The notes under the pieces: model-generated
Database searches by the model: none
The model's input: the letters and a program-made list of their open reading frames with translations, nothing else
What the model was told of the DNA's origin: nothing
NCBI GenBank assembly: GCA_015060685.1
Contig: SUXZ01000008.1
Location: 1 to 64,000, forward strand
Reading direction: 5' to 3'
Source of the DNA: Mediterranea massiliensis
GTDB taxonomy: Bacteria > Bacteroidota > Bacteroidia > Bacteroidales > Bacteroidaceae
Length of the DNA stretch: 64,000 bases
Shown: positions 223 through 35,555 of the stretch, in pieces
Layout of the letters: each line of letters starts with the position of its first letter
How positions within the stretch are numbered: the stretch's first letter is position 1
Translations under genes and position numbers: made by a program

Positions 223-410
223 ACTATCTGTTCCATCGAATGAAACTCTTTGTTTCATGCGTTGAAACTGTTCTCAAGATTAGGGGAAACGAGTGCCGAA
301 TATGGATTTTCGAGGAGTAAAAAGTGTGCATTTTAACATATTTTTAATCGTATGAATGCGTTTTTAAGGGCGTGGCTTAGCACTATCTTTAGATAAGATA
401 GGCAATGGCT

Positions 411-499
411 TGCACTATCTTTAGATAAGATAGGCTGCGCCTCGGGATAAAAAATAAATAAATTTATTTTGTTCTCCGCTCGGCTTGCACTATCTTTGC
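411..499 (+). repeat. ~90-bp dispersed promoter-bearing repeat, copy 1
   Basis: TTGCACTATCTTTA...CTCGGGATAAAAAATAAATAAATTTATTTTGTTCTCCGCTCGGCTTGCACTATCTTTGC; aligns with minus-strand 35099-35193. Confidence 0.85.
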
Positions 500-530: not shown

Positions 531-2267
531 ATGAAAAACATCATAAAATGGTTGGCAGACAACCTTCAGACAGTATTCTTCTGGGTGCTACTGATTGGCA
601 TAGCGGTGTTTACAGAATATCATCAAGGAGTCTATCTGTATCTGCTTGAAAATAACAATCTGTTTATTTATGATTGGGATGTAATTGTCCAGCGTTTTGT
701 CGTTCCGGGCGGCGGAGCCTATCTGATTGCCGGTTTGTTGACTCAATTCTTCCATTTGTCTTATGTGGGCAGTGTTATTACCACTGTCTGCTATGGGCTG
801 ATGGTTTGGGCGGGCTATCGCATTGTAGGCAAAATCTATAAAGGCCAGGCTCTGATGGGATTAGTTTTCTTGCCGGTGGTATTTCTGCTCCTTTCGTTTG
901 AGAACAGTTACTATCGTTTTCAAGGACATGTTGCTTTCTTATTGGCATTGTTAGCTTTATGGGGCTATGTTTCGTTACCAAACAAACGTTGGCTGTTGAA
1001 GTGCTGTATTGGGATGGTTGCCAGCGCATTGCTGTACTGGTTTATTGGTAGTGCGGTTTCACTCTTCGTCCTTGGTGCCTTGCTGGTGGATCTGTTGCGC
1101 CTGACACCAAAGTGGTATTTGGGCCTGTTGTATATACCGGCAGCAATCGTTGCGGGCGTTTATGCCTATGACCTTGCGCTTGTTGCCGATTGGACGCATG
1201 CCTTTACACCGTTGATGTATTACGATATGATATTCACCTATTACTTCCAGTTGTATGCTTGGGGGTTGTTCTTGCTGTTGCCGTTATTGGCCGTTTTACT
1301 GAAGCATATCCCTTTCAAGGTATCTGTCCAACGGGTTATCGGTTTGGGTGGAGTTGTTTTTTTCGTCTATTTGTTGCTCTCTTTTTATGATATTGTACAT
1401 AGCTATTCGCTTGATAAACATTCACGACAACAATATTATGCCGAAAAGGGCGATTGGGAGGGTATTGTAAACCTTTCGCATCCGGGTGAGTCTGTCGGTT
1501 TTATCAGTTACCTGAATCTGGCATTGGCAAAGCAGGGGCAGTTGGTGGACAAGTTGTTTGTATATAACCAACAACCACCCGCCGAATTGACGGGTAGATT
1601 GGCGGATGAACGGGCCGGCTTGATGATGGCCGCATATGTGTATCAGTCTTGGGGCTGCCATGCTGCTGCATTGAAAAATGCCTTCGATACAAACCTTACC
1701 ACCTCGGGAGGCTATCATCCAAGGGCTCTGCAACTGATGGCGCAACACAACTTGGTGATGGGAGCCTATGGAGTGGCCGAGAAATACATCTCCTACTTGG
1801 AGAAAACTCTTTTCTATCGTCAGTGGGCTAAGGATTATCGTCGTTTTTTGTATAGCGACTATTCGGTGGGTAAAGATGCCTTCTTAGGAAGCATCAAACA
1901 ATCCATTCCGCACGATGATTATTATTTGGTTACGTTGCTTGGATTGAATCTGAAAGAAATCATTCATGCCAATCCGCAAAACAAGATTGCATTACAATAC
2001 TATCAAGCCTATCTGCTTCTCACTTTGGATTGGAATAATATAGAAGATTATGCCTATTGGCATCAGGCTCACTATGAAGAACCTTTGCCCGAGCGGTTCC
2101 AAGAGGCGATGGCTTCGTTGGCCCAAGGCGATTCTGAACGTTGCAAGGCTTATGGAGTGGGCGAGAAGGTGATGCAACATTATCGTGACTTGCAGAATGG
2201 ACGGATGCCTTCGCACTACGGTCGTTCGTATTGGAAGTATCTGTATGACCATGGAGTGAAATTTTAA
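531..2267 (+). CDS. DUF6057-like polytopic membrane protein with a soluble C-terminal domain
   Basis: Long ORF; ~10 hydrophobic segments in the N-terminal half, helical/TPR-like C-half. Confidence 0.75.
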   Translation: MKNIIKWLADNLQTVFFWVLLIGIAVFTEYHQGVYLYLLENNNLFIYDWDVIVQRFVVPGGGAYLIAGLLTQFFHLSYVGSVITTVCYGLMVWAGYRIVGKIYKGQALMGLVFLPVVFLLLSFENSYYRFQGHVAFLLALLALWGYVSLPNKRWLLKCCIGMVASALLYWFIGSAVSLFVLGALLVDLLRLTPKWYLGLLYIPAAIVAGVYAYDLALVADWTHAFTPLMYYDMIFTYYFQLYAWGLFLLLPLLAVLLKHIPFKVSVQRVIGLGGVVFFVYLLLSFYDIVHSYSLDKHSRQQYYAEKGDWEGIVNLSHPGESVGFISYLNLALAKQGQLVDKLFVYNQQPPAELTGRLADERAGLMMAAYVYQSWGCHAAALKNAFDTNLTTSGGYHPRALQLMAQHNLVMGAYGVAEKYISYLEKTLFYRQWAKDYRRFLYSDYSVGKDAFLGSIKQSIPHDDYYLVTLLGLNLKEIIHANPQNKIALQYYQAYLLLTLDWNNIEDYAYWHQAHYEEPLPERFQEAMASLAQGDSERCKAYGVGEKVMQHYRDLQNGRMPSHYGRSYWKYLYDHGVKF

Positions 2268-32384: not shown

Positions 32385-32464
32385 AATTCCGTTGTTTATT
32401 GGTTTTGGTTATAAACAACGCAAAATTAGCAAAAATATTGGATTTATTGTGTGTGGAGGGTAAT

Positions 32465-32547
32465 AAAAAAAAGAAGGGTATCTATCCCAGACACCCAATC
32501 TTTGTTAACCTTAAATCTAATACCATGAAAAACACGATGCAAAGGTA
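32465..32547 (-). ncRNA. candidate short orphan sRNA with its own promoter and intrinsic terminator
   Basis: Minus strand: TACCTTTGC (-7) then ATCGTGTTTTTCATGGTATTAGATTTAAGGTTAACAAAGATT-GGGTGTCTGGGATAGATACCC-TTCTTTTTTTT. Confidence 0.5.
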
Positions 32548-34466: not shown

Positions 34467-35081
34467 TTATTCGTCGTCGTGACAATGACAATGCTCGTCG
34501 TGGCAATGCTCGTCGTGACAATGACAATGGTCGCCGCATGAATCTTCTTCCTCTTCTTCGTCGTTGCAACTATTGTATTTTACGTCGTGAAGTGCGCGCA
34601 ATGTGTTCACCAGTTTTTGTCCCCAATACAATTTAAAGTTTTCCTGACAAACCGCCAATGCGTCGTGCATGGTTTCGTTCAGCCCCAGTTGGAATACGAA
34701 GATAAAGTCGCGTATGTCTTGGTAGATGTCCGCCAGCTCTTCCGAGATGAACTTTGTGATGGGTTGGTCGCTATACTTCATGTCGCTGACGAACACATCT
34801 AGGTAGTCGTCTTTTTCGGCCATGATGCCGGCGATGTTTATGCGTAGCACCTCGTAGGCGTCTTCGGTGACAAACGTCTCCAAATCCTCCTCGCCCATTC
34901 GTTGGCAGACGGGGAGCATCTCGGCCTTTAGGTATAGCAGCGGCAATATCTTCAACGATGTATCCACGAAGGCGTTTCGGGGCGTTGTTTCGGCTTGCTC
35001 TAAGAATTTGCAAAACTCGGCGGCAACGGTGACAAACTCCACCACGTTCCGTTGGAAAATCACTTCACTATCTTTTTTCAT
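34467..35081 (-). CDS. DUF5063 family protein with His/Cys/Asp-rich C-terminal tail
   Basis: DUF5063-like body; tail CGDHCHCHDEHCHDEHCHCHDDE. Confidence 0.8.
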   Translation of the reverse strand: MKKDSEVIFQRNVVEFVTVAAEFCKFLEQAETTPRNAFVDTSLKILPLLYLKAEMLPVCQRMGEEDLETFVTEDAYEVLRINIAGIMAEKDDYLDVFVSDMKYSDQPITKFISEELADIYQDIRDFIFVFQLGLNETMHDALAVCQENFKLYWGQKLVNTLRALHDVKYNSCNDEEEEEDSCGDHCHCHDEHCHDEHCHCHDDE

Positions 35082-35098: not shown

Positions 35099-35193
35099 GC
35101 AAAGATAGTGCAAGGCGAGAGGAGAACAAAATAAATACCGATTTATTTTTTTCTCCCGAGCCGCCGTCTATTTTATCCAAAGATAGTGCAAGG
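35099..35193 (-). repeat. ~90-bp dispersed promoter-bearing repeat, copy 2
   Basis: Minus strand TTGCACTATCTTTGG...CTCGGGAGAAAAAAATAAATCGGTATTTATTTTGTTCTCCTCTCGCCTTGCACTATCTTTGC; aligns to 411-499. Confidence 0.85.
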
Positions 35194-35383
35194 TAGGCCG
35201 CCGCCTGTCTTGGGACGAAGCCCAAAGTAGTGCGGCCGAGCCGCCATTTACCAAACAAACTCCGCGCGCGCCCCGAACCTATTCCGTGCGGCTACGCCTT
35301 TTGTTTGGTGCGTTTGTCCATAAAAATGCAATAATATAGGCTTCGCGGGTAGAAGCGTGCAGATATGTTATTGTGGTAAAAAT

Positions 35384-35555
35384 GCGGTCAAATGGTCAGT
35401 TGGTCAGTTTATTTTTCATCGCACCAATACTCGAAGTCGAAATTATTATATTATAATATATTATAATATAATGAAATATCTTTACAAGCTTTATTTTGCT
35501 CAACCCTCGAATGTACCCCTCCGTTTTAAAACTGACCAACTGACCAACTGACCGC
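35384..35555. mobile_element. MITE-like 172-bp element: 27-bp inverted repeats flanking an AT-rich core
   Basis: GCGGTCAAATGGTCAGTTGGTCAGTTT (35384-35410) vs reverse complement of 35529-35555 GCGGTCAGTTGGTCAGTTGGTCAGTTT (25/27). Confidence 0.5.

Follow-up and report, generated by a model that had tools for sequence, protein, structure and literature searches.

Can a bacterial promoter be carried from gene to gene by a short repeat? The question is raised by two similar stretches in the window (the whole 64,000-nucleotide stretch of DNA that was analysed), which a sequence-only reading had taken for copies of a mobile or duplicated promoter cassette placed before unrelated genes. Both copies were found where they had been described, at 411-499 on the forward strand and at 35193-35099 on the reverse strand, and they could indeed be aligned over their full length, with 86% identity between the two copies over 94 bp. 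When TTTTGTTCTCCGCTCGGCTTGCACTATCTTTG was searched with up to 3 mismatches, 2 occurrences were obtained in the window, compared to 0 expected by chance, and a search of shuffled sequence yielded no matches.

The full repeat unit of copy 1 occupied 429..498 (+) (covariance model R1, 91 bits, E 1.6e-19; DNA fold) and was composed of a left arm, GATAGGCTGCGCCTCG, a variable stem-loop, and a right arm, CTCGGCTTGCACTATCTTTG. A TTTG for the -33 region was located within the right stem arm (468..471, +), 19 bp 5' of the -7 box TATCTTTG (491..498, +; consensus TAnnTTTG, PMC7366714). The ATG at 531, 32 nt further on, is that of a DUF6057 protein gene (531..2267, +; Pfam PF19529, E 3e-108). Copy 2 formed a full unit at 35100..35172 (-) (model R1, 74.3 bits, E 3.4e-15; DNA fold z -4.67), with the -33 TTTG at 35127..35130 (-), a 19-bp spacer, the same -7 box TATCTTTG at 35100..35107 (-), and, 18 nt further on, the ATG at 35081 of a DUF5063 protein gene (34467..35081, -; Pfam PF16702, E 5.2e-63). 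The downstream genes are thus unrelated, and a -7 box does precede each start codon, as had been noticed; however, the distance is 18-32 nt instead of the 20-35 bp originally given. Degenerate unit boundaries were present 5' of each copy. For copy 1, a boundary palindrome, CTATCTTTAGATAAGATAG, was seen at 415..433 (+; sequence and direct repeat), with an upstream -7-like box that carries TTTA for TTTG, and a second one lay further 5' at 383..401 (+; repeat family D1). For copy 2, the boundary palindrome was at 35168..35186 (-), where the minus strand reads CTATCTTTGGATAAAATAG, and the remnant of a further upstream unit was detected at 35178..35209 (-; weak R1 match, E 0.001; repeat D2). Upstream of copy 2, at window 35393-35553, an inverted repeat GGTCAGTTGGTCAGTTT ... 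AAACTGACCAACTGACC surrounds the AT-rich stretch TATTATAATATATTATAATATAA.

The sequence-only reading would have failed if the window held the only two copies. The source assembly, a Bacteroides-group genome of 2.6 Mb in 31 contigs, was searched, and 24 matches were obtained by BLAST and 19 by model R1, both at E<=1e-3; the E-values of this home-made covariance model should be regarded as rough. In total, the family comprised about 20 loci in the source genome, and at 2 of them the units were repeated in tandem roughly every 72-79 bp. As judged from translations, the downstream genes included mnmG, lepA, trpS, metG, priA, a U32 peptidase gene, a MarR regulator gene, and others. The same promoter type stands before unrelated genes of one genome (mnmG, lepA, trpS, metG, priA, DUF6057, DUF5063, and others), which meets one criterion for a putative mobile promoter. 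Several copies (L010, L017, L022, and L023) were truncated on the left with the right promoter end intact, and no copy with the left end alone was seen among the source-genome matches examined, which is the residue to be expected from selection on the promoter. One stem type of the source genome, ending TTTTTTCTTC, was without the -33 TTTG.

Some individual loci had unusual surroundings. At the lepA and mnmG loci of the source genome (L235 and L180), the unit directly adjoins the stop codon of the preceding gene or overlaps it; the corresponding lepA interval of G112 instead holds an apparent ordinary terminator and promoter. Two units, L002 (G000:C9:4302) and L111, are found inside an RHS-like reading frame or at its broken edge, ahead of a VVTFSDGS-like motif at similar positions, and perhaps drive displaced RHS tips.

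Across the family, the unit was about 60-95 bp long and consisted of one long imperfect palindrome. On the promoter strand, the left half reads GATAGGC (or GATAGGA), TGC, RYC, TCG, variable arm, and loop, and the right half reads complementary arm, NCTC, GRY, TT, GC (or TC), A, and CTATCTTTG. The unit accordingly has imperfect terminal inverted repeats (GATAGGC / GCACTATC), in which GATAGG[C/A] pairs with [G/T]C-A-CTATC with one bulge. The AAATAAAT/ATTTATTT inverted repeat that had been recognized in both window copies is real, but it is merely the tip of the palindrome spanning the whole unit. The stem-loop was hypervariable yet self-complementary. RYC and GRY were Watson-Crick paired in 98/112 units, compared to 28 after shuffling, and for 47 diverse units the covariation score was 0.336 versus 0.132 for shuffled units (0/500), slid partners giving no more than 0.141. 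The pairing extended into the promoter: the variable dinucleotide of the -7 box ("nn") matched the left end in 49 of 70 units chosen without the exact -7 pattern (23 when shuffled), and it did so in 21 of the 23 units whose box is not TATC. The alignment contained 979 Watson-Crick pairing cells against only 25 G-T and 37 A-C cells; therefore, neither strand displayed an RNA-type tolerance of G-T. This reads as pairing that may act at the DNA level, or as arm-to-arm repair during replication. Some asymmetries were nevertheless kept unpaired across families, namely TGC opposite TT, a bulged A, and TCG opposite NCTC. At unit boundaries such as that of L285 (CTTTGCCGTAAGAAACACAACGGCGAAG), successive units are joined by a second short variable hairpin, one arm of which is provided by the region of the upstream -7 box and the other by the left end of the next unit.

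The sigma-ABfr promoters of Bacteroides carry TTTG near -33 and TAnnTTTG at -7 (PMC7366714). In the repeat, TTTG was found 19 or 20 bp 5' of the -7 box in 82/112 units, and its TT in the right arm was near-invariant (46/47 and 44/47), compared to 35/47 and 37/47 for the partner A's. Across the order, a start codon followed within 250 nt in 109 of the 113 non-inner copies, at a median distance of 29 nt, while random positions and the opposite direction gave flat distributions; the possibility that the copies are not positioned upstream of genes, which would also have refuted the cassette, can thus be discarded. Moreover, when copies were not selected by the exact -7 pattern, TAnnTTTG was intact in 79/86 terminal (gene-proximal) units but in only 11/48 inner units (p 2e-16). 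The contrast was strongest in genome G145, whose inner boxes had lost one base (TACTTTG, TAATTTG) and whose terminal boxes read TATCTTTG or TATATTTG. We infer a housekeeping sigma-ABfr promoter at the right edge of the unit; its activity is deduced from sequence, as there are no transcription start data.

The repeat was not confined to the source genome. An exact 20-base pattern was found in at least 117 stretches across Bacteroidales, the carriers including Bacteroides, Phocaeicola, Prevotella, Muribaculaceae, Tannerella, Parabacteroides, Barnesiella, Alistipes, and others; cultured carriers among them are Mediterranea massiliensis, Bacteroides caecigallinarum, and Barnesiella An55. In the order sample, model R1 detected units in 16 of 148 Bacteroidales genomes, often with 12 to at least 34 copies per genome; these copy counts are lower bounds. 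In the phylum sample, searched with stricter filters, the repeat was carried by none of the 198 genomes other than the source genome. The distribution is patchy yet high-copy. Since the exact-pattern loci favour copies whose right end is intact, other loci were used where this bias matters, though the units found by R1 are likewise skewed towards the right end as modelled. The plasmid collection gave no match, and in the phage collection matches were restricted to 13 unannotated faecal contigs (MT835658, MT837172, and 11 other "Bacteriophage sp." contigs), so that either the units are phage-borne or the contigs are bacterial. Contigs of G145, G138, and G180 end in or beside unit arrays (e.g., L284, L290, L309, and L310); the repeats therefore probably interrupt assembly and make the arrays look shorter than they are.

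How the copies multiplied was assessed from their variable cores, the conserved ends being ignored. The nearest variable core lay at another locus of the same genome for 88/140 units, compared to 13.5 with label shuffling, and for 19/20 units of the source genome, which indicates that copies are made within lineages. Furthermore, when upstream regions of orthologous genes were read, the element was present before mnmG in 1 of the 15 species read, before trpS in 2 of 29 species, and before lepA in 2 of 30 species, the stems of these last two being different. The other upstream regions of the three genes mostly had an ordinary promoter with a TAnnTTTG box at a similar distance. Since most orthologues in related species have an ordinary promoter, the copies have spread within lineages. 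The sister species G013 and G103 are about 76-81% identical and share 4 loci, so the copies at these common sites are older; the two species are too distant for empty sites to be defined at the base level. The insertion in the RHS-like frame at C9:4302 was examined as an empty site as well, and its flanks shared just short homology with other copies. Thus, of the "mobile or duplicated promoter cassette", duplication is well supported by lineage amplification and by orthologues that mostly lack the element, whereas mobility in the sense of transposition is not shown, because no strain-level empty site, transposase, or target duplication was found. A TAnnTTTG box was located no more than 40 nt upstream in 15/62 first-in-array units, compared to 3-4 in control windows; such boxes would fit an entry of the repeat into a -7 box that was already there, or next to one.

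We consider it probable that the repeat is a dispersed, promoter-bearing palindromic DNA element that is copied within genomes and whose terminal promoter is kept by selection. Each copy would be one unit, with a putative sigma-ABfr promoter at its right edge driving a gene about 20-40 nt on; this activity is inferred. The left half is the reverse complement of the promoter half, apart from conserved unpaired bases, so that a single strand is able to form a long hairpin holding the -33 and most of the -7 box. The repeat would spread by copying inside a genome, and a new copy would replace the site of the host gene's own promoter, placing its -7 box as far from the start codon as is usual for the host. 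The units may then multiply in tandem, with selection keeping just the gene-proximal promoter intact. Folded single-stranded DNA might permit the copying, either through an unidentified factor or through recombination at the shared TAnnTTTG boundary; copying via the folded single strand with joining at the shared -7 sequence is favoured here, as an inference. What the comparison of sequences shows directly is the family, the promoter geometry, the covariation, the amplification in lineages, the occupied as against ordinary promoters of orthologues, and the conservation of terminal units. Insertion has never been seen at the base level, and gene conversion might instead have changed the original promoter in situ.

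Several other explanations have to be weighed. That strong housekeeping promoters merely look alike by convergence is practically untenable: such promoters do have the -33 and -7 consensus boxes in common, but the likeness covers 70-95 bp, including an arbitrary stem that is mostly shared within one genome, and shuffled sequence does not reproduce it. Convergence is refuted by these shared variable stems. A fold acting in RNA, as a structured leader, attenuator, terminator, or small RNA made from an upstream promoter, would account for the strong covariation, and the 15/62 first-in-array units with a nearby upstream box could in part be transcribed. We nevertheless judge it unlikely, since the unit is located 5' of its own -7 box and so is not transcribed by its own promoter, G-T cells are no commoner than A-C cells, unlike what RNA constraint produces, and the uridine tract is within the stem and not 3' of it. 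In addition, the repeat has no Rfam match; the only match in the window is elsewhere, at 32464-32535 (-), to BTncRNA_FopS, a Bacteroidetes paralogous small RNA family (78.3 bits). It is more conceivable, though we doubt it, that the palindrome has no function and is maintained by replication errors through arm-to-arm template switching, only the promoter being of importance. Compensatory change without wobble and the fast turnover of stems between species would both follow from it. However, template switching should remove asymmetries, and the unpaired TGC/TT, the bulged A, and TCG/NCTC persist across families.

As for known movers, a REP/REPIN-type repeat mobilized by a RAYT (Y1 HuH) transposase, or an element copied by reverse transcription, would be short, palindromic, intergenic, and multi-copy as this repeat is, with conserved bulges as in REPs, and many copies are 5'-truncated with the 3' end intact. 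Nevertheless, there is no GTAG foot, the feet being GATAGG and CTATCTTTG; Y1_Tnp was missing from the source genome and from 8 of the 12 other carriers tested, five of these 8 being rich in the element, and the RVT_1 reverse transcriptase was absent in 6 of 12 carriers, including the source genome. Both candidate movers are weakened by their absence from many carriers, and we regard this origin as very improbable. Little better is the prospect of a MITE of a DDE-type insertion sequence. The imperfect terminal inverted repeats, the small size, the intergenic location, and the promoter at the end, as in Correia elements, would fit, but target-site duplication showed no clear excess at any boundary in the range scanned for 46 single units, and no parental insertion sequence was recognised, although no insertion sequence library was searched with these ends.

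Returning to the promoter-bearing repeat copied within genomes, we put forward a bolder form of it only tentatively. The promoter itself would be a replicating DNA element, its -7 and -33 boxes coupled by pairing to the other arm, and this element would take over host promoters by copying via folded single-stranded DNA. It would need neither a transposase of the IS200 type nor reverse transcriptase and would leave no target duplication, and many lineages of Bacteroidales would have acquired such promoters independently of one another. If the proposed explanation is true, housekeeping genes such as mnmG, lepA, trpS, and metG of some Bacteroidales run from a repeated, self-copying promoter, and major gut bacteria have a permanently available way of changing their regulation, in which a selfish or domesticated repeat replaces a promoter. 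That the -7 box is kept only in the gene-proximal unit makes promoter use readable from sequence, and the covariation of the -7 box with a distant arm offers a direct test of whether promoter DNA hairpins are under selection. Some assembly breaks may also be due to the units, which may in addition provide a genome-wide set of matched natural promoters.

The family is apparently undescribed: no description was found in the literature, including work on Bacteroides REPs, MITEs, and mobile promoters, and the motif letters were found only in plant primer papers and in none on bacteria, subscription journals being mostly not covered in either search. Promoter-carrying repeats as an idea are already known from Correia elements and putative mobile promoters. 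Ordinary sigma-ABfr promoters have both boxes, TTTG near -33 and TAnnTTTG, as the repeat does, but they are unique sequences outside any repeated palindrome. REP/REPIN and CGTC repeats (PMC3733652, PMC8266576) are likewise palindromic and intergenic, with bulges in some and stem subfamilies; the present units differ in their length (60-95 bp versus 20-40), in the absence of RAYT from most carriers, and in the promoter at a fixed edge. The CGTC definition (CGTC end, 8-9 bp stem, 4-5 nt loop) is not met, as there is no CGTC end and the stem is longer. Correia repeat enclosed elements of Neisseria (PMC2649163) are also small, with inverted ends and an end promoter controlling adjacent genes, whereas the present repeat has a Bacteroidota-type promoter, a hypervariable stem, tandem arrays, and no target duplication that could be found. 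The BrickBuilt MITE of Porphyromonas gingivalis (PMC4596501) belongs to the same order, is always intergenic, and has its own promoter activity in reporter assays; however, it encloses 23-nt tandem repeats and has bidirectional promoters (no sequence comparison was made). Since the repeat fails the GTAG, CGTC, RAYT, and target-duplication tests, it should not be filed as a REP or a MITE; nonetheless, it works like a promoter-bearing MITE, promoter activity being inferred. Putative mobile promoters, the concept of promoter propagation raised for BrickBuilt in PMC4596501, share with it the near-identical promoters before unrelated genes in one genome, but the present repeat is a defined family that is order-wide, has a conserved palindromic fold, and carries a box that covaries with the rest of the unit.
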